The notes under the pieces: generated by a model
The model's input: only the letters and a program-made list of their open reading frames with translations
Database searches by the model: none
Told to the model about the DNA's origin: nothing
Program-made: the position numbers and the translations under genes
From: Amphibalanus amphitrite
Lineage: Eukaryota; Arthropoda; Thecostraca; Balanomorpha; Balanidae
Assembly (NCBI RefSeq): GCF_019059575.1
Contig: NW_024881780.1
Location: 1 to 64,000, forward strand
Length of the DNA: 64,000 nt
Direction: 5' to 3'
Shown: one piece after another, positions 1-56,024 of the stretch
How positions within the stretch are numbered: the first letter of the stretch is position 1
Layout: each line of letters starts with the position of its first letter

Positions 1-637
1 AGCGATGAAAACGCCTTGCATGTGTTCCGCTCGACGATACGGATCGATTGATATGCAACATGACCCTTTTCGGTCAGGTCATGACCTTGACCTGAGGTCA
101 AATTTTCAAGTTGACCCTTCAAGGTCAAGTTATAGTTCATTCGATGCGTCTTGACGAGAGGAACACGATGCCGGTGAAAGTAAGCTCATACAAGGCTTGG
201 GTCAAAGTTATTGCAGAAAACTGTTTCCGAAAAAATCGGCTATTTTTGCAGTTGTTGCCCCCTGCAGGCAAAACCGTTGACGTTAGGTCAAATCTGAGGG
301 AATTACTCAGAAAGGGCGTTAATAGGGCTATCGAATGCACTTTTCCGCGGCGCTGTAACTCTATTGGTTCCCGAGTTATGCGTTGGCTTCTTGGAAATTT
401 TCGACATTCGACCTGGAAATCGGCGAAATTTTGCCTTCAATGACCTCTGGTGACCTGACCTTTGACCTGACCAAAAAAATGACCGAAGTGATTTCGTCAT
501 TATTTTTGACGCTCTTTCGAACGCCGCCTTCCGCGTATCGCTACGTGGCCCAGGAGCCGAGTTACAAGGGGGGGGGGTGTTCAAACACCCCCCAGCAGGG
601 CGTGGAAATCCAGGACCCCCAGCCGGGCGCGGGTTAA
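1..637. mobile_element. piggyBac-like (TTAA) palindromic non-autonomous element, right half
   Basis: Right half of a repeat found many times in this window; the left half lies before base 1. It ends with a G-run/C-run hairpin (about 570-592), then GGGCGCGGGTTAA with TTAA at 634-637. The core near 45-175 is an imperfect palindrome: TGTTCCGCTCGACGATACGG on one side mirrors TTGACGAGAGGAACACGATG on the other. AGGTCATGACCT sits at 76-87 near the centre, and further AGGTCA/TGACCT half-sites fill the body. There is no credible ORF. The family is called piggyBac-like because complete copies elsewhere are flanked by TTAA and start CCCT or CCCG. The transposase source is not visible. Confidence 0.75.
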
Positions 638-6800: not shown

Positions 6801-9800
6801 CGCTACGCTGGCTGATAATAAGAGAACATAGTACATACCATTCCTGACCACCAAAACTAACCGAAAAAGACGATGCAAATAGGTAAGGATGATCTACGGC
6901 AGAATTATAACTTTAACATCTGATCGCCAAGTGTTTCTAAATCCGTCCCATTTTATACCAACATTTGTGTTTGATTGAGACTAATGAATTAAGAATCACC
7001 CTTGTCTCTTATACAGCAAAGAATGAATACCTACTTCAACCAGTGAGATTTCATTTTCCTCACAAGTCAAAATGCATTGTCACAATTGAATGGCAATCCT
7101 TCTCCTAGCCTTAAATCAATGCCTTCCTTTCCGTTTCAGATGCAGACAGCAGATAATACCGTCAGCATCTGCTAAGTCCCTACTCATGCTTACTGGCACG
7201 GATCCAGGACGGTCCTTCTGCCTGTATATTTCTCCTAAAGAGCAGAAGATACAATGATTCTGTTGAAATCTGTTGTCATATCTTAAGGAGGGTGGGGGAG
7301 GGGCGGTTGAGAGAGCTCTCCCTATATGCAGGCTTTGGTACTAGTGCCATGTGGAGAAGTTTTCTTTCTTTTTTAAGCAAAGGAAGTGGGAAGGAACCTG
7401 TCATTGCCGTTGCAAAGGGCATCATTCGGTTCCTATATTATTGATTTAGTGCAGTTGACTCAGACTGTGTAATGCGTGAGGCGTGGTCATCACTGTGACA
7501 CTGTCAGAAAATCTTAGGTAATCATGATACCCTGATGGGCAGTTTGTTGACGTAACTGATCGCTATGAAACCAGAAACCGTATAACTCATGTGTTCTGGC
7601 CTCTGGGACGTTTTGCGCCTACAATATGGCAGCACCGCTTCCAAGATTACTGTATATTTGAGATAATATGCGGCAATATAAGTATGTAGTTTTCGTTCGC
7701 ATCTGATCTGGTAATATTCGTACAGTGTACACAGTATAGCTTTGAGCTTTCCATTTTCAACAGATATGACAATGGCCGGATGATACTGGAAATGGTGCCT
7801 TTGCTCTGAGCATACGGAACGGGACGCAGTATTGAGTATGCAATTGCAGTCGCACTATGCAGCATGACATACGCCGGAAATCTCCCGGCCCGAACGCCGG
7901 AACGGCCAGCGATAGTCGGTACTCATTACGCATAGTGAAAATGGAAACGGTTTCAGCGCAACTCTTCGAAAGGAACGGTGCACTACATGAGACTAGAAAA
8001 AGGGTCACTGATTAGGGCACCCCAAACGGAACGATGTGCACTGCGCAGCATAATACGCAACATCGCAATAAAAAAACGTGCAACTAACCAGTAACCAGGG
8101 CATCCGTATCGGAACGGAACGGGATGCAAAAAAAAAATGATAACAGGATGCCACCGACCTCATGGCCGGCCACCGAAACGGAGCGGTAGCTTCGTATCAT
8201 GTCACGTGGTAAGTGCTAGTGAGAGCGTCAATGATCAGTGATCAGTGATCAGAGCACCCGCAACAGAACGGAGGGCATCAGTGATCACTGATCAGAGCAA
8301 CTGCAACGGAACGGAGGGCATCGCTGATCAGGACACCCCAAGCGGAAGGGAAAGCGAGAGCACAACTGACCAGAACACCCGAAACGGAACGGACGGGAGT
8401 GAACGGAACGGAACGCATTAGCGGCTCGCCGAATCGCGATTCCGGCCAAACATGGCCTCAAGAAATAGGTCACAGGTCAAAGGTCATTAGGTCAGGAATA
8501 TGAGATTTTCAGAGTAGGTGTCCAATTAATTGACTCGAGGGTCCTGAAAGTTTCGTCGCGATCGGCCGCTTTTTACGCGAGTTATTCTCGAAAAAAAAAC
8601 AAGGGGGTGGTTCGTTCGACCCTCCCCCCCCCCCTATACGGGCGAGGGATAATTTATTAAAAAGCTAGGGCCTTCTTAATCCCATCTACCAGCTTCAGAA
8701 CATGTATTGGGCAGAGCTGGGAATACCGTATCTTAAATTTATCCCTAGATGTGTGCCAAGGTATCCTTTCACTCATCTTGGCTTTCCCTCGGCCGAACGC
8801 TTCGTGTTTAAAAACCTCTAGAAACTAATTGAAGTGAATAATTGGCGGTAAGATTATTGCAAAGGCATGAGAAATTAACGTAAAATACATCATTACCGGT
8901 CTTATAACCTCATTTCGCGTATGAAACCTGTCAGAGTCCCAGAGTTTCATATTCATCCCTAGGGTGTGCCAGGGTGGCGTGTCAGTCATCTCGAACCCCT
9001 GCCCGACCCGACGCCTCGAGTTTTAAAGACATCTAAAAACTAATAACGTAAATAATTTGTGGTGAAATTGATATAATATGATCAGAAAAGAACGCAGAAT
9101 AAATTAGTATCGGTCTCAAAGCATTATTTTGCCTATGAAACCAGCCAGAGCCCGCGGAGTTTTAGATTCATCCCTAGGGTGTGCCCAGGGTGGCTTTTCT
9201 CATCTTGGACCTCTACCAGGCGCGACGCCTCGAGCTTTAAAGTCCTCTAGAAGTCATTGACGGACATAATTTGTGGCGAAATTGATGCGATAGGATCAGA
9301 AATAAACGCAGAATAAATTGGTATCGGTCTCAAAACATTATTTTACCTATGAAACCAGCCAGAGCCCACGGAGTTTTAAATTCATCCCTAGGGTGTGCGC
9401 AGGGTGGCTTTTCTCATCTTGGACCTCTGCCAGGCCCGACGCATCGAGCTTTAAGGGCGTAAATACCGCTCACATGGATCCGCCACTCTGGAGTTTTCAA
9501 CACCATCAATCGTAAATGAACATGCCGAGTCAGCATGCATGGTTGTTAGTTGTTACTTATTTTCCAAGCCTATTAGTTATGATTCAGCATGCTCCAACCT
9601 ACGATATAAAAGCTTATCACACAATTTGATGATTCACGACAGGAAATACAAACACTTGATTTATGGTAGCTCTAGCATACCATTTGTAGCGTCATTCTTG
9701 CATCCGTAGCTCCTCAGACTTGTCCCGATGATACGTTACGGTATATGCAAATGCTTCAGCCCTTTCATTAAATTGTTCCAGCGGACGGGTGACTTGTGCG

Positions 9801-16029: not shown

Positions 16030-16639
16030 ACGATTGCGCCAAGGCCGCTTGCGCTGGAATCGTCGCTAGAGTGTTGTGATAGTTGATTTGTTGTTCCCGC
16101 CAAATTTGAAGTTTTCCCTTTATCAGAGAAAAGGCAGCTTCAAGCTTCAAGATAGCATTTTTGAAAAGCTTACTTAAAGTGACCATCCCACCTTAACCCG
16201 GCCGGGCCCGGGGGGTAATCCCAACCACCGCAGCCCGGGGGGGGGGCGTTTTTCGCCCCCCCTGTCTAACTCCGTAAATAAGGGAGCTACGGAAACAAAA
16301 GCGATACCAAGCGAAAGGTCCTTACGAGACGATTCTAAAGCACCTAAAATTTCTGACCTCAAGTCAATTTTCAAGGTCAGAGGTCAAGGTCAAAGGCAAA
16401 AACCGGCACATGTGTAGTGATCTCAAAGTAAGCCTTCTAGAGGACGGCAGGCTGCATCAAACCGGCAAAATTGAGTGTCAAACGAAAGAAGAGAATCTGA
16501 GAATTCCGAAAATGTGCTTAAAATTAAATGTCAAGGTCAAGGTCATGCTCAAAATTGACCTTAAACTTGGCACTTTTTCGCACATCTTGCGTGCTAGCTT
16601 CCAAGATGTTTTGAAATGTTTTGAGGCTTATCAGTTCCC

Positions 16640-17845
16640 TACCCAGTAAACATGCCGACGTCGGCCCTACGTCGGGCCGAGGCTCGGCCCGACGTCGGCC
16701 CAGCGTCGGTTCAACCTCGGCCCGACATCGGCTGGACGTCGGATATGCCCGCATGTTCCGACGTCCAGCCGAAGTCCAACCGACGTCGAGCCGACGTCGG
16801 GCCGAGGTCGTTTGCCGAGGTTGACGAGATCGTTTGTCGTTGGACCGACGGGGCCGACGTCGGCATGTTTATTGGAACAACGCGCCAAAAATATCAACCG
16901 GCGGTGGGATTCGAGCCCCCCAGTCGCCGACGTCGGCATGTTTACTGGGACAACGCGCCAAAAGCATCACCCGGCGATGGGATTCGAACCCCGTGTCATT
17001 TGAACGCGAGGCTAGTGCGCTAACCACTACACCACGCAGCCAGATAGCAAACTTGGTTTGTTTTGTTGTGTTATGCCCTTTCGGTCTGACAAGACCATTT
17101 CAGAGCCGGAAGGATGATAGGATGGAGACATTGGTCTTCTTGGCGAGCACCCTGGGTCCAGTTCATATAGAGTCCCTGGTCCCATTGCTGTTACGTGGCA
17201 CTTATTGGAAAGGGCGACCCCACAATGGATTCATAAAGCCACTCTTACATACCTGCATCAACGTTTCCCAAAGTGTCCCTTTGATAAGTGGCACTTTGGC
17301 AAAGTGACACTTGCCGACTGGCCTTTCTATATGAACTGGGCCCGGCCCTGGTGAGTTGCCGGGGCTGAGCCTGACCAAAGGATAGGCCGAGCAGCCCCCA
17401 AGCACTCACCACACCCGGCTACGGGCGAGCTCGGCTTACGGGTAATCCCAAATGGGATAAAGTTTCCCGTCCAGTCCGGATCAGGGGGTTGCGGCGTGGA
17501 GGAAGATTTGAGTTTCCTGAGGATATTTTGAATACTCTTTATGAAACATGAAACATGTATTTTATATTATTTTAACGGTCAAAACAGCGGCCGATTTCGG
17601 TCCGACGTCGCCCCGACGTCGGCCCGACGTCGGCTGGACCTCAGCAATTGATCTCGGTCCGACGTCGGCCCGACGTCGGCTGGACATCGGCTGGACGTCG
17701 GTACATGCGGGCATATCCGACATCCAGCCAACGTCGTGCCGAGGTTGGACCGACGTCGGGCCGACGTCGGCATGCCGATGCCGAGTTGCCGACGTCACCC
17801 CGACGTCGGCCGACGTCGGGCCGACGTCGGCATGTTTACTGGGTA
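16640..17845. mobile_element. Composite of CGACGTCGG palindromic elements with TA-flanked inverted ends
   Basis: TACCCAGTAAACATGCCGAC (16640) and its mirror GCATGTTTACTGGGTA (17830-17845) enclose two blocks of degenerate CCGACGTCGG(C/G)CC repeats (16650-16950 and 17590-17835). TA at both edges would fit a Tc1/mariner-type target. An inner terminus, GCATGTTTACTGGG, at 16930-16943 suggests two elements side by side. The 17050-17550 part contains a second inverted pair (GGTCCAGTTCATATAGAG / CTATATGAACTGGGCC). Several short ORFs here are shadows of the repeat. Confidence 0.7.
16972..17042 (-). repeat. tRNA-derived SINE head or tRNA pseudogene
   Basis: On the minus strand GGCTGCG begins at 17042, an A box TGGTGTAGTGG lies at 17034-17024 and a B box GGTTCGAATCC at 16990-16980. 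Spacing is normal for a tRNA, but the 3' acceptor arm (CGCCGGG) does not pair with GGCTGCG and no sound anticodon stem forms. It is therefore not a working tRNA gene. The sequence runs on into GCGCGTTGTCCCAGTAAACA. A second, degenerate B box with the same downstream sequence lies at about 16903-16912. Confidence 0.65.
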
Positions 17846-18655
17846 TTTGTGGTTCATCTTACGATACAAGGCTGCTCAAAGGTCAAGGTCACAGAAGAGT
17901 ATCCCTGCTAGAGGCTATTTCACTGATTCAAGTTAGTAATAATAAATAAGATAATTTTGCCGTCCAGAAGCTCTAAATGAAGGCTTATAGGAAAATAGAT
18001 GCCAGATTCGTGATCAGCGGGTACAAATCCATCATAAATGACCTCTCATGTGTCAAGGTCAACCAGAGGTCATTCGAGGTCACATGAGGTCAACATAAAA
18101 CTTGACCTTTTCCGAACAAAATATTTATCATTCGACGCGGCTTGACAAGGCGAATGCGATGGTACCATTGCCGTAGCTCTAGGACCTTTTTTGTCGAAGT
18201 TATTTGCGAAAAACTAAAACCACATTTCGGGGTCATTGACCTGACCTCTGACCTCGGGTCACCAAAACTATTTTTCTATTTTTCTCTAGGTCAGACGCTA
18301 CACAACCGTGCTCGTAATTTGTCTTTATCTCTAAAACTATATTTTTAGCAGCTATTTGAAGTTTGCGTTGGTGACGCCGAAGTTTGCCGTGCAGGGGTCT
18401 AGAAAAATGGACCTTGTGACGTCATCAATGGGGCTAGGTCCAAATTTTTTACTTCAAAAGATGTCAAATTGATGGGAAAAAAGGTACTGAAAGTTTCGCT
18501 TTCCTATCCCTAAGTGTTCGGGAGCTATCGCAAATATTCACCAGGGGGGCGAAAAACGCCCCCCCCCCGTGCCCGCGAGGGTTAACATTAGTTTTGAGCT
18601 GAGATAGCCAAATTGGTGGCCATGGCCTGCAAATACCGGTTTGGCATAGAAATAA

Positions 18656-25059: not shown

Positions 25060-26500
25060 TGATGGAGACAAGATAGAGCGATGAACTCAGGTGGAATGTG
25101 TTCCGGCAATGACTATGGTTCGAACTTCGAATGATATGCAGCATGACTTTTCCGGTTAAGTCATGACCTTGACCTGAGGTCAAATTTAACCCTAGAACGC
25201 CTAGGGGGGGTTGTATCAACCCCCCCCTGAGGTTTTTTCGAAGTGCACGCTAAACGGCTTGTCGTAGCGGGCTGAAATTTTCAATACCCTCTGGGGCAAC
25301 CTTTGCGCATCTTTTGCCGAAAAAAATTGATCGGGTCATGTCAGGTCACGGAGTTATGACGTCATAAGAGGTACAGCCTCCGGCCGACAGTTACCAAACG
25401 TGTGCGCCGAATCCCTAGGTTTTCTGCCGGTGATACCCACATTGTTTGATGGATCATGATGAAACTTCCCATGCATGTTGGGGCAAGCATTGGCTATCGT
25501 GTGGTGCAAGAAAATTGACCGGGTCAGGTCAGGTCACGGAGCTATGACGTCACAAGAGGAACAGCGTCCGGTACTATTTTTGAAAAGCGCCCGAACCACT
25601 ATTTTGCTAATTCTTGTCACCTCAATGGGAATATGCAGCAATATTAGCTTCTATAGGGAGCAAATGGACCTCCCAAATCCAAAAATACAATCAGATTTCA
25701 AAAATTTAAATTTTGATTTTTCGAATTTCTGCCGCCGACTGTGACCTTGCCGACTTCCGGCGCTCCCAACGCGCCATTTTTAGAGCTAGTGAAACGAAAT
25801 ACATACCAAACGATAGAGAATTGATCAAGGAACACGATAGTGAAGGTTTCAAGTCGATATCTCCCACCGTTTTTCCGCAATCGCCGCGGAAAGTTGAAAA
25901 AGTTTGATTTTTTAGGAAAATTTGACCTTTGACCGGTCATAAGTAGGTCAAATGTTGACCTAGGACCAAAAAATATACCACCAATCGCGAGATCTCGTTG
26001 AGAGCAATCCGTTGGTTTTTTCCGCTAAGCTCTACGACCTTCCGTTTCGAAACGCCAGGGGGGGTCGTAACAACCCCCCCCCCTGGTCGTTCGTGTTATG
26101 AGAAATGGCCTGGTCGTGCGAGGGTTAAAAGCTGTCTTTTTCAGCCCAACTTATACTTCATTCGATAAGTCTCCACAAGAGAAACACGATGGTGGCAAAA
26201 TGAATGTTATGATGAAGGTATAAACGCCAGGGTTATTGCCAAATTTGTTGGAAAATTGATTCGGCGAAATCTGTCTATTATGGTGTTTTTAGTGCCCTCT
26301 GTGGGCCAAACCGTTGAACTTAATTGAGGTTAGGTTAGGTTCTATTTCGCGAGTCTCTATAGCCTTTTTGGTTTACGAATTTCGCCGATTTGTAAAGATG
26401 TCAAAATCGGGAGTTTTTGTGATAGGTAATATTACGTCTGACGACCTCCAGTGAACTCAAGGATGACATGGCTGTAAATAACCTTCACAATTCTGAAAGA
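25060..26500. mobile_element. Old piggyBac-like copy hosting a younger one
   Basis: 25060-25185 (GACAAGATAGAGCGATGAAC ... CATGACCTTGACCTGAGGTC) and 26129 onward (CTTCATTCGATAAGTC...GAGAAACACGATGG) are the two sides of one copy of the TTAA palindrome family, comparable with 1-230 and 32740-32930. The copy lacks recognisable termini. A complete family member sits in its centre. Confidence 0.65.
25186..26128. mobile_element. piggyBac-like (TTAA) element, complete, nested
   Basis: TTAA at 25186-25189 and 26125-26128. The left end CCCTAGAACGCCTAGG is followed by the hairpin G-run TTGTATCAA C-run; the right end has G-run TCGTAACAA C-run and closes with GTGCGAGGG. The left terminus CCCTAGAA equals that of the original piggyBac element. 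Interior: GGTCAGGTCACGGAG(T/C)TATGACGTCA occurs twice (about 25335 and 25528). Non-coding, 935 bp between the TTAA sites. Confidence 0.8.
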
Positions 26501-26766
26501 TATTACAGCGAACTCTATATTGCCTGTCTCGGTGTCTATCTTTCATAGTTTGGGACCACACGATAGCCCTTCCAATTCCCCCACCCAACATGACAAAGTT
26601 GGCCGAAGCCCCCACCCGGGAGCAGGTTCAGCACAACACTGTTGGCAGAATGCAAAAAGGCAGAAGCCAAGAAATATGAGATGCCCTCATCCTTCCGAGA
26701 CAATAGAAGCATCTAATTCTATACTTCGCAGGTGCAAATGGTGAAGATCTGGAGTACCAATTGTAT

Positions 26767-26917
26767 CGACAGTTCCGAGCAAGAACATCCTGTGTCAAAT
26801 TTTTCGAAATTGAGATGTTCATACCATTCGACTCAGCTCGTCGAGCTGAGTCGACTAGTATAAAAATCTCAACTTCGAAAAATTTGACACTAAGGATGTT
26901 CTTGCTCGGAACTGTCG
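26767..26917. repeat. 151-bp near-perfect palindrome
   Basis: CGACAGTTCCGAGCAAGAAC (from about 26767) is mirrored by GTTCTTGCTCGGAACTGTCG (ending 26917). The arms are about 75 bp and meet at GACTCAGCTCGTCGAGCTGAGTC with almost no loop. It is a fold-back element or a very recent inverted duplication. Confidence 0.8.
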
Positions 26918-27210
26918 GTATGCTTGTGTACTGTGTATCAAAGACAGGACGGGCAGATATATTTACCTAAATATATTCGTTTCATGAGAAGTTAAATCTC
27001 ATTAAAAATATCGAGCGACACATCTTGTCTCACATCTGACCCGGTCGGCGGTAGTTCAACGTGTCCGTACTCTGTGTTCCCCTTTGAGCAGCCCGGCCAG
27101 CCATCGATCGCTGGCTCCGATCTGCGAGGGAGATAGGGGAGAGACCATCGGCGGCCGCCCATGGAGAAACCCCGCCCGAGAAACTCGGCTCCGGCGACGG
27201 CCGAGGCTCA
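26918..27210. other. Cuticle gene 5' flank
   Basis: About 290 bp between the palindrome and the core promoter of the cuticle gene. Nothing specific is recognised. Confidence 0.35.
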
Positions 27211-31394: not shown

Positions 31395-32195
31395 TACCCA
31401 CGGGTCAAAAAATTCCCCCTTCGCGTTGCGGAGCACGCGGGTAACCCTAGTCCACTTCTAACTCAGCTTGTGGGCCACGTCGAGACACGCAGTAGGCGGC
31501 GTTCGAAAGAGCGTCAAAAACTATTACAAAACTACTTAGATCATTTTAAGGCTAGGTCGAACTGGTCGAAGGTCAGGTCACCAGCGACAACTGAAAATCA
31601 AAGTTCGCCGATGTTGACATTTTTTGACAAAGCGGCGCATAAGTCAGGATTCAGAAAGAGATTGAACTACAGCGCCGCAGCAAAGCGCATATTCGATAGC
31701 TCTTTTTTATGCTCTCTCTTATTGATTATCTCAGATTTGACCTAAGGTAAACGTTTTAGCCTCAAAATATACGTTTTCGCGGAGGACGTTTACATTTTGC
31801 TCAGACCTGCATGAGATTAGTTCAACCAGCATCGTGTTCCATTTTTCGAGACAGACAAGTCAAATGAACTAAAATTTGACATTAAAAGGGCATTTGAGAA
31901 TTTGACCTAAGGTAAAGGTCATAACCTAACCGGTAAAGGTCATATTGCATATTAGTCGATCCATACTTTCGAGAAGGAAAATAATTATATAGGGTGTTTC
32001 ATTGCTCTAATATATCTCTATCAAAAGTTATTGTCCAAAATCTACTGGAGACCTTTCACGACCTGAGATGACCTCAGTAACATAAAAGTGGTCACATCAC
32101 GAGTGACATTTACCGATTAAATGTGTCATATTTACCTGCATCCCGATGGTTGAGGTTGTTTTCGTTCAGAAGAAGAGCATTTCAACTGTCTCCCA
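31395..32195 (-). mobile_element. piggyBac-like (TTAA) family, decayed reverse copy
   Basis: Reverse-orientation counterparts of the right-end segment: CACGCAGTAGGCGGCGTTCGAAAGAGCGTC (about 31485-31515), GGCGCATAAGTCAGGATTCAG and TACAGCGCCGCAGCAAAGCG, with the end at about 31395-31450 (CGCGGGTAACCC). It lies tail-to-tail with the copy at 32196. Confidence 0.6.
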
Positions 32196-33390
32196 TTGAT
32201 CCGCACCGTGCTGGAGGGGGGGGTACGCCCCCTTAGGTTTTTTCCTCGCGAACATCTCAAAAACGGCGTCGCGCAGCGCCTCCGCTGTCTTTGGTACACC
32301 TGTTCATACATCTTTTCTACACAGCTTGTTAAATTTCAGATGAGGGTCGTTCAAGGTCAGGTCACTAGGGCACGTCAAGTGACCTTACCTAAAAAAAGTT
32401 AAAAGACCCGCTATAGCTACACCGACAGAACGATCACTTTTGAAACTTTTAGAGATTGATAAGACTAACAATATGCATAAAATGTTCATCTCGGACTTTT
32501 TATGTCTGTGACCTAAGGTCAGGTCAATTTTGGGACCTCAAGTCAGTGGGAGAAAAGTGAAATGCGCCTCTTTTGGACGAATGTCGTTTAAAACCCCTTA
32601 AACATCGGTTCATAGGTAAACATAGCACACTGAATCGTAAAAATGCACATGTGTCCTTTTATGTGCCCTTGAGGTCATCTCAGGTCATAAGCGGTCACCT
32701 ATTTTATCACCATAAACGGTTTTTTGGCTTCATCTTTTAATGGAGACGTGCTAGAGCGGTGAAAACACGTCAGATGTGGTCAGCTCGACGATACGGATCG
32801 ACTGATCTGCAGAATGGCCCTTTACGGTCAGGTCATGACCTTGACCTGCGGTCAAATTTTTAAAATAACCTTTCAAGGTCAACGTATAGTTCATTCGACG
32901 CGTCTCGACGAGAGGAACACGAGGCAGGCAAAAGAAATATCGTCACTGTCTTGAACCAAATGTTATTGCAGAAAAACGCTTTTCATAAAAACTGGTATTT
33001 TTGGAATTTTTGCCCTCTGGCTGGAGGCTTAACCATTGACCTGAGATCAAATCCGAGAGCAATATTCAGAAAAGCCTGTAAAAGGGCTATCGAATGCGCT
33101 TTTCCGCGGCGCTGTAACTCTATTGGTTCCCGAGTTAGCCGTTGGCAGTTTCCAAAATTGTTGAAATGGACTCAATTTTACCTTTGATGACCTCTGGTGA
33201 CCTGACCTTTGACCTGATCTAAAAATTGAAACGAAGTCTTTCCGTCATTATTTTTGACGCTCTTTCGATTTCCCCTTACCGCGTGTCGCTACGTGGCCCA
33301 GGAGCCGAGTTAGAGGGGGGACGTGAAAACACCCCCCCCCCCCCCCAGCACGACACGGAAAGCACAGGCCACCAGCACGGCGCGGGTTAA
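32196..33390. mobile_element. piggyBac-like (TTAA) palindromic element
   Basis: The right TTAA is at 33387-33390 after GCACGGCGCGGG. The left end TTGATCCGCACCGTGCTGG (32196) is a decayed TTAACCCGC end. Subterminal hairpins lie at 32214-32232 and 33315-33348. The core holds AGGTCATGACCT at 32830-32841 and mirrored CGACGATACGGATCGAC / TTCATTCGACGCGTCTCGAC segments. Confidence 0.75.
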
Positions 33391-34739: not shown

Positions 34740-34927
34740 ACCGTCTACGTTTTTCTCACAGACAATGACAATAGGTACAAAAACAATGTAATAAGACCAG
34801 ACGTTTCGACAACAAAGTGCCTTCGTCAGTGGAAAAACAAGATATAGGCTTTACATCGATAAAGAATATATAGAAGACGACCAGCCTGCACGAAAAGTGC
34901 AGGCTGGTCGTCTTCTATATATTTTTC
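34740..34927 (-). mobile_element. Penelope-like element terminal fragment (hammerhead core)
   Basis: On the minus strand the order CTGACGA (34829-34823), a short helix AGGCAC TTTG TTGTC, then GAAACG (34807-34802) and TCTGGTCTTATTACATTG is the conserved core of a hammerhead ribozyme. Penelope-like retroelements are known to carry such a core in their terminal repeats. No reverse transcriptase is present here. The fragment adjoins the perfect hairpin at 34865-34923. I identified the core by eye; stems I and III were not verified. Confidence 0.5.
34865..34923. repeat. Perfect inverted repeat, about 27-bp arms
   Basis: ATATATAGAAGACGACCAGC...CTGCAC pairs with GTGCAG...GCTGGTCGTCTTCTATATAT around a GAAAA loop. 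There are no mismatches in the arms. Confidence 0.85.
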
Positions 34928-38165: not shown

Positions 38166-38574
38166 CTAGGCGTCAAACCCTTAGACGTCAGGGTGAGGCC
38201 GGGCGGTGAGGCAGGCACAGGCCTGAAGAGAAGAGGAATTTTCAGATGTCGGCTTGGCATCTTAAGGGCCCTGCATGGCTTTCTCAGAGGCTGACATATC
38301 GTACTGCGGGACCTCCATGAGCCTCAAAAACCTCTATGGGCCCCCTCACGCTTGGGGTAGGCTTCCTGAAGCATAAAATATCTGAGTCTTGAGATGGGCC
38401 CATTAGACATGAACTAGACCTAAGACCATCAATATACGTGTGGTGAGTTGACCTATATCAAACATGATATCGCTCAATCAGGATTGGGATAGGCCCTCTC
38501 AGACCCAGACCAGGCACGGAGTACGGACCCTCCCACACATAGGATGATCCTTTCATTCCTGGGATGAGTCTTCT

Positions 38575-39210
38575 CAGGCCTGAACTGGGCCCTCTCAGAC
38601 CTGAAATGGGCCCCTCTCAGGCCTGAAGTGGACCCTCTCAGGCCTCAAATAGGTCCTCTAGGGCCTGAAATGGGCCCTCTCAGGCCTGACATTAGCCCTC
38701 TCAGGCCTCAAATAGGACCACAAGGGCCTGAAATGGGCCCTCTCAGGCCTGACATTAGCCCTCTCAGACCTGAAATGGGCCCCCTCAGCCCGGAAATGGT
38801 CCCTATCATGTCGAAAAAGGGCCCCCTCATACCGTAACTGGGCCCTCTCAGGTCTGAAATGGTGCCTCTTATGCCTGAGATGGGCCCCTCTCAGGTCTCA
38901 AACGGGCCCTCTCTGGCCTCAAACGGGCCCTCTAGGGCACGAAATGGGCCCTATCAAGCTTGAAATGGGCCCCCTCAGGCCTGAAATGGGCCCCTCTCAG
39001 GCCTGAAATGGGCCCCTCTCAGGCCTGAAATGGGCCCTATCAGGCATCAAATGGGCCCTCTCAGGCCTGAAATGGGCCCTGTCAAGCTTCAACTGACCCC
39101 TTCAGGCCTGAAATGGACCCCTTCAGGCCTGAAATGGGCCCTCACAGACCTGAAATGGGCCCTCTCAGGCCTGAAATGGCCCTCTCATGCCATGGAACGG
39201 GCCCTCCAAG
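38575..39210. repeat. 21-bp minisatellite (TCAGGCCTGAAATGGGCCCTC)
   Basis: About thirty imperfect copies of a unit beginning TCAGGCCTGAAATGGGCCCT. The 21-bp period keeps frames open as LRPEMGP heptads (for example 38628-38837); there is no start context or family match, so I do not call a gene. It lies inside the 34948-39457 element. Confidence 0.85.
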
Positions 39211-39465
39211 GCCTTGGATTAGTTCAATCGGGCCTTGGATGTACCCCCTTAAATCATAAAATGGGACTATAAATCCTAAAGGGGGGGGGGTATCAGGCCT
39301 GAAAACTGTTTTTCAGTCCTATGACGGACCTTGACATTAGTGATAAAAAATTGTCGGGCTGCATAACGTTACAGTTCGAATCGACGGTGGGCCCCTAGGA
39401 TAAGAGACGGGGGTGAGATCTCACCCCTTTCACCCCCCCCCCCTGGCTGCGCCACTGTTTGGTTC

Positions 39466-41482: not shown

Positions 41483-43118
41483 CTACTATGGACGTCAAAC
41501 CACTTGAGACCCCACTTTTTCGCGATAATTTTTAAATGCGTCAACTCTCGTTGACAATATTCTGGCAATGTGTGTTTCAGAACCTGCCGAAACTTTTATT
41601 ACTAAGGTATTTTGACGCCAAACGATTATTAAAGGTACTTCTCATTCACTCGTAATGTTAAATTTCACGGAACGAATCTGCTGTTTGGGTAGAGGCTACG
41701 CTCTCATGGGGCGGAGCCACGTAATGACGTCAGCGCTAAGCTCCGCCCTACCCCTCCGGCGCTCCTTGCCCGGCGACCGGTCACTCGCGTCTCTCGTTCC
41801 ATTCAGGCTTGATGGTGGGCGGTAGCTGGTAGCGGTAGCGGGCGCTGGTAGATGGCATTTAGAGCAGATGGCGCTGGTGGCGGGGCTCGAGTGTGGCCGA
41901 GCGCAAGCCTCTGCCCGGGCCTGAATTGACCTTAACCCGCGCACCGACGGGGGGGGCGGATATCCGCCCCCCCCCTGAGGTTTTTCGCGAATAGCGGGAA
42001 AACCGCGGCGCGTAGCGCCGCGAAATTTGGTATGACTATTCCCTTATCATTTTTACACATGGTGTGCAAGTTTGAACATCCTACCTTTCAAGGTCAGGTC
42101 ACCAGGTCACTTTGAATGACCCAACCTCAAGTCACTTTTTTGCAACTTTGTCACCGTGCCAGAGCTACAGTAGATGTCGGAGGCCTTTTAAAGTCGCAGG
42201 ATGTTATTAGGTCATTAGTAGCTACAATTTGTATATCTCGGAATTTTGATATCGGTGACCTAAGGTCAGGTCAATTTCGCGACCTCCCCATTATAAGTCA
42301 ATGGGGGGGAAAATCAACTCCCTGTTTTTACCACTAAAACGGGTCGGAATGGCCCCATATACCATACATGACTTCATATACGATCAACCTTCACTATCTT
42401 GAGGTCTGTTTTGCTGTTGGGCAGCTGTGAGGTCATGTGACGTCATCAAAGGTCACCAAAGGTTTTTGGCCAATAACTCCGTACAGGAACAAGATACAGA
42501 CGCGTGGATGGTCTCATTGTGTTCAGCTCGTCAAGACGCATCGAATGATATACATGATGACCTCGAGGTCACGTGACCTGAGGTCAACCTTTGACCTTGA
42601 CCTTTCGAGGTCAACATATATATCATTCGATGCGGATTGACGAGAGGATCACGATGATGCCCTTAGTTTGTTCCTATCTTGACTAATTCGAAAGTTATTC
42701 GAGAAAAACTCTCTCCATATTTAGCGCCGCCATTTTGACTTTTTCGACCCCTGTGACGTCATCTTTGACCTGACCTGAAAATGACCTTAGTAAAAATTGT
42801 AGATCTTGACCGTGCGTATCCGATGCCGTTTACCGCTTGTCGCTATCTTGCTTCGTTCTCGAGATCTCAGGGGGGGCGGTCATCCGCCCCCCCCCCCGTC
42901 GGTACTAAGTTGGCGCAGACCCCCGTCGGTGCGCGGGTTAACATTACGAGTGAATGATAAGTACCTTCCATAATCATTTGGCGTCAAAATACCTTAGTAA
43001 TAAAAGTTTCGGCAGGTTCGGAAACATACATTGCCAGAATATTGTCCACGAAAGTTGACGCATTTAAAAATTATCGCAAAAAAGTGGGGTCTCAAGGGGT
43101 TTGACGTTCATAGTAGAG
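41483..43118. mobile_element. Element with about 175-bp inverted ends
   Basis: 41483-41661 (CTACTATGGACGTCAAACCA, GAGACCCCACTTTTTCGCGA, CCTGCCGAAACTTTTATTAC, TCATTCACTCGTAATGTTAA) is mirrored by 42938-43118. The arms differ by scattered substitutions. The interior consists of 270 bp of GGTAGCGG-rich sequence and the TTAA-family element at 41932-42941, which sits at the junction with the right arm. Confidence 0.8.
41932..42941. mobile_element. piggyBac-like (TTAA) palindromic element, complete
   Basis: TTAA at 41932-41935 and 42938-42941. Ends CCCGCGCACCGACGG and CCGTCGGTGCGCGGG match over 15 bases. Hairpins: G-run CGGATATCCG C-run at the left, G-run CGGTCATCCG C-run at the right. The centre near 42570 is a palindrome: GCTCGTCAAGACGCATCGAA and ATTCGATGCGGATTGACGAG flank AGGTCACGTGACCT (42566-42579). 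Non-coding. It is one of the clearest copies of the family. Confidence 0.88.
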
Positions 43119-45844: not shown

Positions 45845-47617
45845 TTAAAGGGACCCTCCCACCTTAACATTAGATTTGAGTTGAGATAGCCAAAATGGGG
45901 TCCCTGGCCCACAATTACCGGTTTCGGCACTCACAAGTCACAATTTTGAGAAATACCTTAAATCGGAAATATTGAATTTCAAAATTGCAGCATTTTGATT
46001 CAGAGGGGCTAATGCATAGGAAGACCCCTCTGAATGTGTGACGTCAGCGCAGATATCTAACAATTTTTAAATGTTTGACTAAAACGTTTTGTAGCACGCG
46101 GTGGTATATGCTGCATTGCGCGCAACGGTTCCATGACAACTGAACCAGTGACAACTGAACCAGTGACAACTGAACCAGGACAACTGAACCAGTGACAATT
46201 GAACCAGTGACAACTGAACCAGTGGACAACTGAACCAGTGGACAACTAAACCAGTGGACAACTGAACCAGTATGGCAACTGAAACAGTGGACGACTGAAC
46301 CAGTGGACGACTGAACCAGTGGACAACTGAACCAGCGGACAACTGAACCAGTGGACAACTAATGTCGTACTGCGCTGTATAGGTATAAGGTAGCGCGTGG
46401 CTGTACGGACGGTCTGCGCCAATCTGCCGGTCTGCCAATTGATCTGTGTCCGATCTATTAGAGTGTCCGTCCGAGAGCCGTACGACGGCTGACAGGGCTG
46501 ACAGAGCCTGGTGGTCGCGAACTGGTGTGGTAACCGTTACGCCCACCTGGGACGCCCGAATAGTTAGCAACGTATAAATAATATTCACTTTGATGGCCTA
46601 ACTCGGGACAGACAGGGCACGCAACGTGGGCTTGGCAGAGTTCAGCCCGCCTGGGCCCAGAGGAATCTCCGGTATATAAATGGATTCACTGCTCGGGCTT
46701 ACATCGGGCTTACGCCAAACGTCGCACAACTAGGGCTAAACAACGGCTGTCCTGAGCTCGCCGAGAGGCCCAGAGGGCATACCTCCGGCAGATCATAGGC
46801 TTAAGTCGGCATTTTTGTGTCATACGCCGACTTAAGTCTTTAGCCCAAGCGCTAGCCGACTTCAGCCCGACTAAAAATCTCGGGCAAGCCGCACTTCAGC
46901 CTGCTTGGGCCCGGAGTAAAATTGCTTGCTGGGCTACTGGTTAGTGGTTCAGTTGTCACTGGTTCAGTTGTCACTGGTTCAGTTGTCACTGGTTCAGTTG
47001 TCATACTGGTTCAGTTGTCACTGGTTCAGTTGTCACTGGTTCAGTTGTCACTGGTTCAGTTGTCATACTGGTTCAGTTGTCACTGGTTCAGTTGTCACTG
47101 GTTCAGCTGTCACTGGTTCAGTTGTCACTGGTTCAGTTGTCTACTGGTTCAGTTGTCCACTGGTTCAGTTGTCCACTGGTTCAGTTGTCCACTGGTTCAG
47201 TTGTCCACTGGTTCAGTTGTCACTGGTTCAGTTGTCTCTGGTTCAGTTGTCACTGGTTCAGTTGTCACTGGTTCAGTTGTCGCTGGTTCAGTTGTCACTG
47301 GTTCAGTTGTCACTGGTTCAGTTGTCCCTGGTTCAGTTTTACTGGTTCAGTTTTACTGGTTCAGTTGTCCCTGGTTCAGTTGTCACTGGTTCAGTTGTCT
47401 GCCTACCGCGCGCAACAAATGCCGCACTTTTAAATAAAGTCGCTAGGAACAGCGGAGATCCCAAAAAGTAAACAAAAGTATAAGTCTAATATCTTGAAAA
47501 CCGGTGAATATTTTTTGATGACATTTGGTAGATATTCGTTTTCGCTCTTTCTGAACCGAGCGACATCACTATCATGTCAATTCATAAACTTTTTTGAAGG
47601 TGGGAGGGTCCCTTTAA
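45845..47617. mobile_element. T2/Kolobok-like element with inverted minisatellite arrays
   Basis: TTAAAGGGACCCTCCCACCT (45845) mirrors AGGTGGGAGGGTCCCTTTAA (ending 47617); TTAA at both edges. Two arrays of a 15-bp unit run in opposite directions: ACAACTGAACCAGTG at about 46136-46355 and CTGGTTCAGTTGTCA at about 46940-47400. Between them lie CTTAAGTCGGC / GCCGACTTAAG hairpins (about 46800-46835). No transposase is visible. The site 45864-45867 (CCACCTTAACATTAG) is the unoccupied form of the insertion at 16193. Confidence 0.8.
46938..47400. repeat. 15-bp minisatellite (GGTTCAGTTGTCACT)
   Basis: About thirty units of GGTTCAGTTGTC(A)CT with variants ATACT, CCACT and TTTTACT. The partner array of opposite orientation lies at about 46136-46355. 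The period of 15 leaves all three frames open as TGSVV, WFSCH or LVQLS repeats; these are not genes. Confidence 0.9.
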
Positions 47618-48974: not shown

Positions 48975-49245
48975 CAAGTCTACACCATTTTTGATCCATT
49001 TTAAGACAAATAAAGACCAATTTAAAACAGTTGATTTCCTAATCAAAGCAATTTAAAGATGGGTTACATGTGACACCAGCTTAAAACCTGACACATGTGA
49101 AATCATGTGACAGGTGTTTCAAGCTGAATAGCATGTGTCTGTCTTTCAGTCTGTCTGTCCTGTCTTTCAGTTGCTTTAATTAGGAAATCAACTTTTAAAT
49201 TGGTCTTCATTTGTCTTTAAATTGATCAAAAATGGTGTAGTTTCA
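48975..49245. repeat. Fold-back repeat, about 80-bp arms
   Basis: CTACACCATTTTTGATCCAT...GACCAATTTAAAACAGTTGATTTCC is mirrored by GGAAATCAACTTTTAAATTGG...TGATCAAAAATGGTGTAG. The loop of about 120 bp contains ACATGTGTCA / TGACACATGT-type short palindromes. MITE-like, non-coding. Confidence 0.75.
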
Positions 49246-50225: not shown

Positions 50226-53200
50226 ATGATTCAAGAACCATACATTGACAACTTGGTGGCAGACTCTGGAGCCTTCCTCCGCAATGTGCCACTCCATCAC
50301 ATGGCCAAAAATGTGCTCACCGTTCCCGAGGTCGTGTCAGAAATTCGCGACAAGGCCACTCGGGATCGGCTTCAGGTTCTGCCTTATGAGCTGAAGCTCA
50401 AAGAACCTAGCGATGAGTGCATCAGACAGATCTCTGACTTTGCGCGCAAGACGGGCGAGCTGCGATTTCTCTCCGCCACGGACGTGCGCGTGCTGGCGCT
50501 GGCACTACAGGTGACGCGCGAGACTGTCGGCGGTGGGCACATCCGTCTACTGCCAGCCGCCTCGCGCACCGACACCAAGCTGTACCACCCGAGAGAGCAC
50601 AAACTCGGCCAGCTGCCGGTCGGCTTCGTGGAGAAGGTTGGCGAGCTCGCTGTGACAGAGGACGACGAGAAGGCCAGAGGTGACGGCGAGCAGGTCGGAA
50701 CGGGAACTGATGCGCAGGACGGTGACAAGGTGAAGGATGGGGATGGGAAGGCTCCGGCACCCGGTGGCGACGAGACCGCGGGAGAGAGGGAGGAAGGAAA
50801 GAGAGGAGAGGCAGAGACAGATGACCCCAACAGCGAGGAGATGTTTGACGCGAAGGAGGACCCTGAGGAGGGCGACACTGATGAGGATGCTGAAGAAACT
50901 GAGATCAAAGAGACAAAAGATACAGATGCGATTGAGTCACAAGAGGGAGACGAGGAGGACGGCGATGAGCAGCAGGAGGAAGAGGTAGAGGAGGAGGAGG
51001 AGGAGGACGAGGACGATGGTTGGATTACACCGGGCAACATTCAGGCCGCCAAAAACGAGATGAACGCTCAGGCCGGTGAAGTTGAAGAGCCCGTTAAGGT
51101 GAGATAACCCTGACTTAATCCGTTTTATGCTTAACCCTCGCATGTGTAGGGGGGGGGGGTCGGATGGACCCCCCCATGGTTTTTTCGCGAATAACTCGCG
51201 TAAAAAGCGGCCGATCGCGACGAAACTTTCAGTACCCTCACATTGATCAATTTTACACCTACCCTGAAAATTTCATGACCCTGACCCAAATGACCTTTGA
51301 CCTGTGACCTCTTTTCCGAGACCATGTTTGGCCAGAATCGCGATTCTGCGTATGTCGGCTCGCATTAGCCGCGCGTTTGCAAGCTTTTCGTGGTTTCAAA
51401 CGTTGAAACATGTGATTTGATGTTGCTTCCATGCATTAGGGTGGGTGTCAAGGTCACCTGAAGGTCAGGTCAGGTCATTGACCTTTGGTGACCTCGGGTG
51501 ACCTCGGTTCACTTTTTCGAGCTGTACATGTTTCTAGGCTAGTTTTTGGAGCTGAATTCGAATTTAGCAACCATTTGAACATTTACGAAGTAGTTTTGGT
51601 GCCTTCGTAACATGTTACGAAGCTGTCAGAGGCGGTTGACACGTACTACGAATACCCGTCACGATGCCTACTGGTTGACCTGACCTGACCTGACCCGACC
51701 TAGTCTAAATGCTTAAAGACATCATCTGTGGTCAAAACTAACACGATATTCGTGATCAGCACCCCGAAAAACCCCTTAGAAGCCACACTTTACGACTTTC
51801 TAACAGGTCCCGATTTTCCCGACTTTGGGTCATTGACCTGACCTGGAAGGTCACCCAATGACCTAGGACCTTAAAATTGGGTATCATCGGCTTCCTCTCG
51901 TCACGGGCAACACGCTCGTTTTTTTCCGCGAAGCTCTAGCTCGATCAGGGGCCAAACGGCAAGGGGGGGGGGGTTCCAACCGACCCCCCCCCCCTACACA
52001 TTAGAAGCTGGCAAACGCCGCACACATGCGAGGGTTAATATGCTTTGTTTTTATTTAGTCTGGATTTTTTCAGTGATCGAATTTCAGAGGTTAGAAGTAG
52101 AACCAACACTAAGCGGTCCTCATCACTTGGATCATCACTGGCACGGGTTCTGACCCGTAACGCTGTGTCGCGAAATCCTTGGTGACCCTCATAATTAATC
52201 TTCCACGTAACGGCCCACCCTGGTCGGAGACAACTGATTGAATTGGTTGTTTTTTCGCCATTGTTTCACTAATGCCTTACCATCTCGATAAGAAAGCATA
52301 ATACTCTGTCAGTATACCGATCAATTGTGCCTGCTTCTAGACGAACGGTGTTCGCGTTTGATTATTGGCTGACTGACATCCTCTCGTGCTCCTCCCCGCC
52401 CCCTCGCGTTCCCAGGTGGCGTGCATGACCACCGACTTCACGATGCAGAACGTGCTGAAGCAGATGAACCTGGAGCTGGTGTCGATCGAAGGACGAAGAA
52501 TCCGAGAGGTGCGCCGGTTCGTGCTGCGCTGCTTCGGATGTTTCCAGGTCACCCCGCACATGGACAAGACATTCTGTCCCTGGTGTGGCAACAAGACGCT
52601 GAAACGTGTCTCTGTCACGCTCAGGTGAGGAGAGGGCCTCCAAATAAGGTTGGGGCGACGGACTGAGCGTCTGTGGTGGCTTATGGGATGGTTTATGGTA
52701 GGCCATTTCGCTAAATAAGTGCATGATAACGGATGCACAGACGGTAATGGTCTGTCTTCGCGAATGGAGAGATAACTATTGTATCTGTCTCCTAGCCTGT
52801 CTCTCTGTTCCTTTTTCAGAGCTGACGGCTCGCAGGAGATCCACATCTCAACTCGAAAACCAATCAGCAAGCGCGGCACCAAGTACTCGCTGCCGTTGCC
52901 GCGCGGAGGGAAGTATTCGGTACAGCCGGTACTGTGTGAAGACCAGCCCCTGCCTCAGCAGCGCGCCACGGCACGCTCTCAGGTGATGCAGTGGCGGGAT
53001 ACGCGGGTTGGCGCTGGGACGATGGGAACGTGTGCCGACGGGAAGGGTATCCTCGTGCCCAGCATAATTGTGAAACAGTGATGCAATTCAAGTGCACTGC
53101 TGCGCTTTCAGGGAATGTTTTCACGAATGGTGGCTCTGCCTAAGTTTTCGTGTCATGTGCATATCCACAGTTTTGTTTTGATTGCAACTTGCTGCAGCTG

Positions 53201-54255: not shown

Positions 54256-56024
54256 TTAACCTGCGAGCTGCTGGGGGGGGGGGGGGGAAGGGGCGTTAAA
54301 CGTCCCCACTTTTTCGCCGCCCTATAGCATAAAAACGGCTCGCCTCAGGCGCGCCAAAATTTAGGTGCCTGAAATTTATTGTGACAAAGTTTCAAAAAAA
54401 TTGGTCGGAAAATTTTGAGATATCGAGGTTTTAGTGACGTCAGTTGGGGGAGGTTTGGTCAATGGTTGTCATTTTTAGCACATGCCATTTTTGGCAACCA
54501 TGTGCTAAAAATGACAACGCTATCAGCTATTTTTAGCAACGATGAAGCCGATTTCACTCCTCAGCGAGGAAATCACGATTTTGGAAATACAAGCACTGAT
54601 TTTGGAAAAGAAGTGCTGCCACCTGGTGCAAGAAGAAGAAACCAGCTTTAATATGGCCGTTGTTTGTATGGTAGTCCAACGTTGAAGTATACCCTTTTTT
54701 GTGGCCCGAAGTTGGAACTTTAAATTGAAGCATCCGAAAATGATCGATATTGATCGAAATCATGATGTTGATGAAAAAAATAATATGTTAAGTTGAGAGA
54801 GGAGGCCATTTTATCCAGATGCGGTGGTTTACTTCTTGAAATTATTTTTGCTTACGACGACTGCCATGTAATGAGGGATAATTAGCAGCCGTCATTAGCA
54901 AAAATAATTTCAAGAAGTAAACTACTGCATCTGGATAAAATGGCCTCCTCTCTCAACTTAAAATATTATTTTTTTCATCAACATCATGTTTTCGATCAAT
55001 ATCGATCATTTTCGGATGCTTCAATTTTAAGTTCCAACTTCAGGCCACAAAACAAACTACCATACAAATAACAGGCATATTAAAGCTGGATTCTTCGTCT
55101 TGCACCAGGTGGCAGCACTTCTTTTCCAAAATCAGTGTTTATCTTTCCAAAATCTTCATTTCCTCCCTGAGGAGTGAAATCGGCCTCATCGTTGTCAAAA
55201 ATAGCAGAATCGTTGTCATTTTTAGCACGTGTGACAAAAATAGCACGTGCTAAAAATGACAACGATTGACCAAACCTCCCCCGACTGACGTCATGATTTC
55301 TGAGTGTTTGACCAAAAACGGCATATGTTAAAAAAAGCATATAAAATCACAGAATAAAGATACAGACATGCAGTAAATGCCATTAGACTGCCAATACCAT
55401 GAACAATCAAATGGCTGTCTTCGATTTTTGATTATCGTTCCGCATTTTCCAAAATCTTGAACTGAATCTTGGCAATTTCTCGTGACTTCTTCGCGACCAT
55501 TATACAAGCATTTCTTAAATTCAACTCTTTGAACCAAACACGTACACATATGATGAAATGAATGTTACCATCGTGTTCTACGCCCAAAATTACCCATAAA
55601 TCATGTGTCACAGGCTGTGAATATCAGTTTTTATTTTTGGGGATGTGTGCTTACCTGGTTGACCTGACCTTGACCCTGACCTATGCTTGACTGACCCCTA
55701 CATGGATCTGACACTCTTGTAGGCCTTATATGAAGGCTTGTGCACCGTTTTGACAGAGTTCTTGACGAGAGACGCCCATTGCGAAGTCCTGAAGTCCATG
55801 CTACTAAAAGTTCGATTTCAGGTGTTTGACCTGACCTTGACCCGACCTGTGACCTCAAAATTCAACTTAAAAGCACTCGTCTGAAGCGTCTCGTCGCGTT
55901 CTTTCGTTTGCCCCCTGGTACGTTTTGCTGAGCCTATTGGTTCTCGAGTTATCGGCTGGGGGCGTTCGCCCCCCCCCCCCAGCAAACGACGGGTGGCGAA
56001 ATACCCCAGCAACTGCCGGGTTAA
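54256..56024. mobile_element. piggyBac-like (TTAA) element hosting a large fold-back
   Basis: TTAA at 54256-54259 and 56021-56024; ends CCTGCGAGCTGCTGGGG and CCCCAGCAACTGCCGGG are diverged mirrors. A G-run, CGTTAAACG, C-run hairpin follows on the left; G-run CGTTCG C-run lies on the right (55958-55981). GACCTGACCTTGACCCTGACC (55660) and TGACCTGACCTTGACCCGAC (55828) belong to the family core. The middle is displaced by the palindrome at 54434-55292. Confidence 0.75.
54434..55292. mobile_element. 860-bp fold-back element
   Basis: Arms of about 415 bp (54434-54850 and 54880-55292) meet near 54863. They share TGACGTCAGTTGGGGGAGGT, TGTCATTTTTAGCAC, TTGGAAAAGAAGTGCTGCCA and TGGCCTCCTCTCTCAACTTA with about 10 percent mismatch by eye. 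Each arm holds the same roughly 70-residue open frame ending PPGARRR.QL because of the symmetry; I do not claim it is expressed. Confidence 0.85.

Follow-up and report, generated by a model that had tools for sequence, protein, structure and literature searches.

Which kind of mobile element lies between the two TTAA sites at positions 41932-42941 of the window (i.e., the 64,000 nucleotides of Amphibalanus amphitrite contig NW_024881780.1, which is contig C283 of the 807.6-Mb assembly), and what does it carry between its ends? A sequence-only reading had taken this focal element as one copy of a wholly palindromic, TTAA-targeting transposon family with piggyBac-like ends, and had missed what proved to be its main feature, a regularly spaced lattice of AGGTCA words. 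AGGTCA is the half-site of nuclear receptors. In our reading, to which we give a probability of about 0.6 from sequence comparison, the focal element would be a non-autonomous, high-copy element of a piggyBac group in which other members bear transposase genes, and the AGGTCA lattice would be carried in cis as a putative protein-docking platform matched to chromatin.

Structure of the focal element

The focal element is non-coding; on each side it has TTAA and, next to it, one arm of a 15-bp inverted repeat without mismatches (CCCGCGCACCGACGG). Its features are as follows.

41932..42941, no strand: focal non-autonomous element, TTAA to TTAA, 1010 bp
41936..41950, + strand: left terminal inverted repeat CCCGCGCACCGACGG; with TTAA it matches the right end perfectly over 22 bp
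41949..41974, no strand: left subterminal G-run/C-run palindrome, hairpin-capable (element bases 18-43)
42091..42109, + strand: AGGTCA cluster 1, 3 hexamers, 159 bp from the left end
42209..42214, + strand: single AGGTCA, off-phase
42256..42273, no strand: AGGTCA cluster 2, 3 hexamers
42430..42455, + strand: AGGTCA cluster 3, 2 hexamers
42514..42657, no strand: imperfect palindrome, 144 bp, off-centre (element bases 583-726)
42558..42613, no strand: AGGTCA cluster 4, 7 hexamers, within the off-centre palindrome
42766..42787, - strand: AGGTCA cluster 5, 3 hexamers, 154 bp from the right end
42870..42903, no strand: right subterminal palindrome (element bases 939-972)
42923..42937, - strand: right terminal inverted repeat, partner of CCCGCGCACCGACGG

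Inverted similarity was observed at the ends (bases 1-44 with 939-1010), in a few matches of 12-16 bp and in the 144-bp palindrome (583-726). The global score of the element against its own reverse complement was 57, compared with 27.6 +/- 10.1 in 20 interior shuffles, which is a weak excess. A foldback element, symmetric along most of its length, was thus rejected for the focal copy; what was left there of the symmetry claimed for the whole length is mainly the pair of ends and the off-centre palindrome. Large internal palindromes are present in two other elements of the window (16193-18585 and 54256-56024). The right flank of the focal element (42938-43116) has an inverted copy at 41483-41661 (93.9%) that stops exactly at the same TTAA, and this flanking repeat may itself end at TTAA.

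The AGGTCA lattice in the window and in the genome

The focal element carries 19 AGGTCA words in its 1010 bp, compared with 0.49 +/- 0.67 in dinucleotide shuffles, none of which (0 of 500) reached that number. AGGTCA was also the commonest non-homopolymer hexamer in 15 of 16 arms (ties in two included), all 16 having been chosen for holding clusters, and 119 of the 150 AGGTCA words of the window fell in ten spans, drawn around elements and clusters, that total 11.5 kb. A four-word cluster at 59623-59657 lies outside all recognised TTAA elements of the window. Among distances of up to 260 bp between consecutive clusters in the window, 29 of 33 were of 140-210 bp (mean 171 +/- 30), the periodicity statistic was 0.372 compared with 0.092 +/- 0.050 (reached in 0 of 2000 randomisations), and the distances between pairs of AGGTCA words peaked near 170, 360, 460-510 and 670 bp. 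When 39 intervals were selected by a centre distance of 130-215 bp, the clusters were 170.3 +/- 18.3 bp apart from centre to centre, with a clear gap of 143.1 +/- 21.4 bp between them. In 13 of 14 arms the distance from the TTAA end to the first AGGTCA was 134-174 bp; the exception, the right arm of 16193-18585, had 292 bp. Within the clusters, steps of 5 or 10-11 bp were frequent, rather than one receptor-dimer spacing.

The same spacing was observed outside the window. In loci L009-L058 (143 kb with the focal copies masked), which had been fetched for other reasons and some of which overlap or are copies of each other, 116 AGGTCA pairs were 160-180 bp apart, 5 were 80-100 bp apart and 4 were 240-260 bp apart. 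Genome-wide, with forward and reverse counts added, AGGTCA pairs numbered 575,351 at gaps of 150-180 bp (288,562 + 286,789; reversed-pattern control 6,733) and 307,271 at gaps of 320-350 bp (167,223 + 140,048; control 6,054), compared with 68,687 at gaps of 65-95 bp (35,051 + 33,636; control 9,564) and 72,026 at gaps of 235-265 bp (37,039 + 34,987; control 6,561); pairs at gaps of 150-180 bp outnumbered the off-phase ones by about 8:1. TTAACCC was followed by AGGTCA after 140-170 bp in 34,708 + 58,366 cases (control 321 + 332) and after 60-90 bp in 484 + 610 (control 179 + 166), and by the opposite orientation, TGACCT, after 140-170 bp in 16,175 + 21,556 (control 298 + 295). Because multi-copy families dominate these genome-wide counts, in which a single element may count several times, independence rests on the family-level tests.

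AGGTCA clusters occur in families with and without a transposase. In a transposase-bearing element of the lattice type, C33:447032-451754, they occupy about 700 bp at each end, and the intervening 3.3 kb, where the gene is located, contains three AGGTCA. In contrast, 0-2 AGGTCA were counted in the 2 x 600 bp of arms of fourteen other piggyBac elements from this genome, which represent few end types, and none was found when the word was looked for in three flanks with CCCAGGAACG ends.

Conservation of the word and apparent exchange of ends

In 13 alignments of diverged relatives, AGGTCA was kept in 116 of 177 instances, compared with 182 of 742 for composition-matched hexamers and 2698 of 10498 for all hexamers, both directions being counted and some sequences being shared between the alignments. 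A stricter test with 8 alignments, non-overlapping words and CpG-free controls gave 76 of 107 (71%) for AGGTCA and 984 of 3979 (25%) for unrelated hexamers. Of the units between clusters, 3 of 38 same-arm pairs were alike, compared with 3% of 727 between-family pairs. As the same-arm units are mostly unlike while AGGTCA is kept, the word and its spacing persist while the intervening sequence changes.

The lattice families appear also to exchange ends, as we infer from a nested MITE (miniature inverted-repeat transposable element) at C702:33975-34969 (L096/L097). About 650 alignment columns of this MITE are 97-100% identical to the focal element, and the left 300 and the last 60 columns, both terminal repeats included, are of a different end type. 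In this MITE the AGGTCA clusters have kept their phase, which for those of the shared interior follows from descent; the sole independent case is the first cluster, located in the foreign left arm.

Transposases of the lattice group

T. ni piggyBac and piggyBat target TTAA and have inverted repeats that start with CC. The focal family has a TTAA target-site duplication with precise insertion and terminal inverted repeats that begin with CC, and for its relatives a PF13843 transposase was found within an element that has matching ends. The search of the assembly with PF13843 gave 116 scored matches, many of them with open frames of more than 550 codons, and none of the 116 is on contig C283, in agreement with the earlier statement that the window carries no transposase. 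The element C44:1060842-1064816 (3,975 bp) shares both ends, which are distinct from each other, with 25186-26128 (left 97.2% over 393 columns, right 92.7% over 315), so that 25186-26128 is an internally deleted derivative; the C44 transposase gene is open over 667 codons, with an apparent frame-shift near the C-terminus. Further partnerships are supported by one end only. The ends adjoining the C1797 and C512 transposase genes match 26128 (98.2% and 96.0%) and belong to the same family, the end adjoining the C412 gene matches 16193 (91.4%) and the one adjoining the C639 gene matches the right end 56024 (82.9%); in addition, the single end read beside the C552 gene resembles the left end 54256 (69%). 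The C639, C412 and C512 genes are in pieces or contain stops.

Two more elements of the lattice type, C33 (666 open codons) and C702:33509-39481 (683), match PF13843. The C33 transposase is similar to that of T. ni piggyBac (E 1.2e-56) and to that of piggyBat (4.6e-21), and its C-terminus is a Cys/His-rich domain that aligns with the cysteine-rich domain (CRD) of T. ni piggyBac; the C702 C-terminus has a similar Cys/His pattern, as judged by eye. No zf-C4 receptor domain was matched in either transposase up to E 1. The transposases of lattice families are mostly 38-54% identical to that of C33, and the C1010 and C698 pieces are 51-76% identical.

In order to find the partner of the focal family, one or both flanks of 55 transposase places were read, and no PF13843 transposase with CCCGCGCACCGACGG ends was found. 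Of the first 20 loci, those with readable ends were rejected as partners, since these ends were of the CCCATTA or CCCTTTA type (L012 and L020 showed none). In 20 further one-sided flanks five TTAACCC ends were seen (CCCAGGAACG three times, CCCAGATCTG and CCCATTAGAG), none of them focal. The flanks read at C1616, C53:657k, C152, C1313, C1202, C186, C720 and C778 had no lattice end, and AGGTCA clusters were present in that of C720. Two longer spans considered as autonomous focal copies were also discarded. In the 6.1-kb span C4:1496536-1502646 (L059) a Gypsy-type retroelement interrupts a focal copy, and in the 2.7-kb span at C1:1077495 other DNA interrupts one; the Gypsy-type insert has long gag/pol-like open reading frames, and a repeated flanking stretch resembles long terminal repeats. 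Of the piggyBac relatives for which the sequence-only reading proposed a search, transposase-bearing ones turned up for sister families (with both ends in C44), and at the 55 places none turned up with the focal 15-bp ends. The piggyBac membership of the sister families is sound and that of the focal family is likely. Kolobok and Sola3 are other users of TTAA, and either identity is unlikely because the sister families have piggyBac partners.

Copy number, age and insertion

The exact 19-bp end TTAACCCGCGCACCGACGG was found 5,578 times in the assembly (2784 forward and 2794 reverse; reversed control 0), which corresponds to roughly 2,800 focal copies, provided that each copy has both ends. Matches to the nuclear-receptor domain (PF00105) were often found as equal-score pairs on different contigs; these pairs suggest that both haplotypes are partly in the assembly, so that the haploid copy number may be lower. 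Forty full-length focal matches at 96-100% were scored out of 2645 first-look candidates, and 18 distinct full-length copies had a mean p-distance of 0.0157 (1.6%; range 0-3.9%), a figure that leans young, as all 18 have exact ends and 8 of them were the best BLAST matches to the focal copy. With this leaning, the numbers bear out the recent burst proposed earlier. The focal element is short, non-coding, homogeneous and of high copy number, with inverted repeats, as MITEs are.

TTAA on both sides and unrelated flanks were observed in 8 of 8 listed full-length copies, partly by construction, since the query included both TTAAs and no search was aimed at copies lacking TTAA. When 37 flank pairs (duplicates included) were compared, five distinct focal insertions proved to have an uninterrupted counterpart, i.e., a match that runs across the two flanks once these are joined. 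In the best case (97.6% over 505 columns), the joined flanks of the copy at C1:1510395-1511399 match 51463-51967 of the window, inside an element of the 51131 type; the other four matched at 76.6-94.7%. No uninterrupted site for the window's own focal insertion was present among the sequences compared. The five sites show that focal insertion at TTAA is precise, and together with the 15-bp repeat they substantiate the TTAA flanks and piggyBac-like ends described before.

A nucleosome-scale spacing and its possible meaning

The nucleosome core is 147 bp, and the clear gap between clusters is close to that length. Furthermore, A/T dinucleotides in 40 gaps oscillated with a period of about 10 bp (0.272 compared with 0.007 +/- 0.039; 0 of 1000 controls). 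A nucleosome-scale explanation of the ~170-bp spacing would thus be plausible from these sequences.

The elements have a common cis architecture, i.e., TTAA with CCC(G/T)-type ends, a subterminal G-run/C-run palindrome and, along the non-coding arms, AGGTCA clusters that recur at intervals of ~170 bp. We propose that a piggyBac transposase of the lattice group very likely moves the focal element in trans, and that the AGGTCA clusters are likely to be docking sites of a DNA-binding protein that would act in cis. A cis role is likelier than a role limited to a transposase promoter, because gene-less MITEs keep the lattice. It is plausible that one nucleosome between clusters would set the clear gap of ~143 bp, that the element would in this way lay down a nucleosome array with protein-bound linkers, and that such an array might keep the arms accessible in germ-line chromatin or help to bring the ends together.

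Several observations weigh against this reading. The focal family's own transposase did not appear at the 55 places, and the single transposase clade of the lattice elements is a presumed one. Several of the arms counted are interrelated at 65-80%. The Fourier period in the window was 154-165 bp, under the mean spacing of 171 bp. Other short words are also kept (GAGTTA 18 of 25, GAATGA 10 of 13, and others), and the lattice unit may carry such further motifs besides AGGTCA. The adjacent half-site pairs, as direct (DR) or everted (ER) repeats, were 28 DR-1, 17 DR4, 12 DR0, 9 ER1, 8 DR5 and 6 DR1, with others fewer, and because of this mixture no single receptor dimer fits. The 10-bp statistic had been picked after the lags had been seen, and held-out gaps gave weaker values at three redundancy limits, 0.081 (n=43; 18 of 500 controls), 0.086 (n=51; 5 of 500) and 0.098 (n=59; 0 of 500). 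The signal was absent in 24 terminal segments of 60-155 bp (0.0007) and in a strict held-out set of only 3 segments, a useless size (-0.06). A-T-rich linkers were sought in the gaps and not found, G+C being flat across them.

Candidate binders and rival explanations

Which protein might bind the clusters? Nuclear receptors recognise RGKTCA words (PMC1785376), and the assembly has 77 PF00105 matches to their DNA-binding domain, which point to an animal as host. Our tentative candidate, at somewhat less than even odds and on sequence grounds, is a nuclear receptor of the host that would bind AGGTCA half-sites singly. A conserved host partner is favoured because the hexamer does not vary among lattice families with transposases mostly 38-54% identical to that of C33, and because the fourteen other piggyBac elements and the three CCCAGGAACG flanks are without the lattice. 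A wider proposal, which we regard as possible and rather doubtful, is that this transposon group would encode its own chromatin, as a nucleosome array of ~143 bp of rotationally phased DNA and ~27-bp linkers with putative host hormone-receptor-type docking sites, and would in this manner tie transposition or germ-line accessibility to a host nuclear receptor.

A group-specific site of the transposase's own CRD is a serious rival to the host partner, and a real minority possibility. The CRD would bind AGGTCA, and the 170-bp spacing would just permit binding between nucleosomes. The CRD-like termini of C33 and C702 would suit this role, as would the confinement of the lattice, as far as seen, to one piggyBac group and mainly to its non-coding arms. 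The T. ni CRD half-site TGACGCATG has TGAC in common with TGACCT (PMC7351741), and a CRD palindrome present three times in the piggyBat left end is a precedent for repeated CRD sites (PMC11707139). However, the structure-bound CRD sites are at bp 17-33 in piggyBac (PMC7351741) and 19-30 in piggyBat (PMC11707139), whereas the first AGGTCA starts 134-174 bp inside in nearly all of the 14 arms. Moreover, piggyBac and piggyBat have different CRDs with unrelated sites (PMC11707139), whereas here one hexamer persists among families that differ in their terminal repeats and in their transposases. The binder might also be another host protein, neither nuclear receptor nor transposase CRD.

The periodicity could also be a passive relic of an ancient, diverged 170-bp tandem array, of satellite-like origin and without present function. 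A clear 187-bp internal duplication in C44 and its derivative 25186-26128 would fit such an origin, and the 3 of 38 same-arm pairs that are alike (8%) stand out against the 3% between families. Nevertheless, the other 35 pairs have no such similarity although AGGTCA and its spacing persist, and the proportion of AGGTCA words kept is almost threefold that of other words, so that an origin of the spacing by tandem duplication is mostly unsupported and the relic is unlikely. Slightly less credible still is a lattice that serves as a host target for silencing or insulation, in which a host binder of AGGTCA arrays organises or represses the transposons and the elements tolerate it; such ends persist in tens of thousands, and nucleosome-length spacing would be typical of organised chromatin, yet a purely harmful site should vanish from successful families, and AGGTCA is conserved against drift. 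Finally, an ordinary piggyBac MITE with AGGTCA as a compositional accident is extremely improbable, for although the end structure and copy behaviour are usual for MITEs and that label stands, the accident is refuted by the shuffles, the randomisations and the genome-wide phasing.

Other elements of the window

The sequence-only reading counted about a dozen sites in the window, and TTAACCC or its complement is indeed present at 15 (6 left, 9 right). It also took five elements as complete copies of one family, which did not hold: their termini differ (CCCTAGAACGCC/CCCTCGCACGACC, CCCGCGCACCGACGG, CCCTCGCATGTGT, CCCGGCCGGG/CCCTCGCGGG and CCTGCGAGCTGCTG/CCCGGCAGTTGCTG), self-BLAST of the window gave no full-length match among the five, and the "copies" represent five families or more, each with terminal repeats of its own. 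The lattice elements other than the focal one, none of them assigned a strand, are given below.

1..637: lattice element truncated at the edge of the window, right part present; terminus TTAACCCGCGCCCGGCTGG; 10 AGGTCA
8427..8652: fragment, 82% related to the left end of 51131-52038; four-hexamer AGGTCA cluster
16193..18585: family distinct from focal; 19 AGGTCA; similar to the end adjoining the C412 transposase gene (91.4% for 16193-16641, 83.5% for 17844-18244)
25186..26128: family distinct from focal; internally deleted derivative of the transposase-bearing C44 element
31452..33390: composite of lattice elements; ten AGGTCA clusters with 24 words in all, most clusters separated by 150-190 bp; right terminus TTAACCCGCGCCGTGCTGG
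51131..52038: family distinct from focal; 17 AGGTCA; a relative elsewhere hosts a focal copy
54256..56024: family distinct from focal; 859-bp palindrome; ends resemble those beside the C639 and C552 genes

The palindrome of 54256-56024 is an inverted self-match at 54435-55293 (86.7%) that far exceeds the terminal repeats in length. Opposite-strand arrays of one 15-16-bp unit (TGGTTCAGTTGTCAC / GACAACTGAACCAGTG) at 46135-46360 and 46945-47399 surround about 584 bp and may form a minisatellite-bearing foldback element; a stretch near 13188-13320 is related to them. Long tandem arrays, with periods of 39/78 bp and 21 bp, are located at 22026-23122 and 38546-39235. Isolated imperfect palindromes of 65-261 bp (76-89%) without AGGTCA were observed at 26764-26920, 48980-49240 and 34862-34926.

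Relation to known elements and meaning

The lattice elements are like piggyBac of Trichoplusia ni and piggyBat of Myotis lucifugus in their TTAA target, CC-starting inverted repeats, repeats or palindromes inside the ends and PF13843-type transposase with a C-terminal cysteine-rich domain. They differ in that AGGTCA clusters occur every ~170 bp from ~155 bp inwards, whereas the bound internal sites described for piggyBac and piggyBat start at about bp 17-19. Like the focal family, human MER75 and MER85, which are piggyBac-derived MITEs, are non-coding, TTAA-flanked and of high copy number, and are thought to be mobilised in trans, as we presume here. We know of no nucleosome-spaced AGGTCA lattice in MITEs of that type, and the families described here have the lattice in common more than sequence. 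Alu is one family of short interspersed elements, and in contrast to it many dissimilar DNA-transposon arms are involved here, whose 5-19 AGGTCA words per arm keep their phase and are conserved from one relative to another. Alu repeats likewise spread nuclear-receptor half-sites through a genome, as DR2/HNF4 sites (PMC1785376, PMC3252374), and the DR2 motifs arose largely by CpG deamination (PMC1785376). The spreading of receptor sites by mobile elements was thus known already. No precedent for a piggyBac group with a common, conserved, nucleosome-spaced AGGTCA lattice was found in the open-licence literature, where the papers that came up dealt with Alu, with CSB-PGBD3 or, by their titles, with other subjects.

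Transposons are usually analyzed by their ends and genes, and in these families a spaced regulatory word ranks with the best-conserved features. As this word is conserved across families with unrelated ends, it suggests selection on how the element sits in chromatin. The use in cis of a host DNA-binding protein and positioned nucleosomes by a cut-and-paste transposon becomes testable, and thousands of copies offer a natural series for measurement. If the reading is true, the elements, with their tens of thousands of ends, would have spread receptor platforms that are already phased to nucleosomes through the genome, and an animal would in this way have acquired a very large store of nuclear-receptor half-sites with their phase already set.

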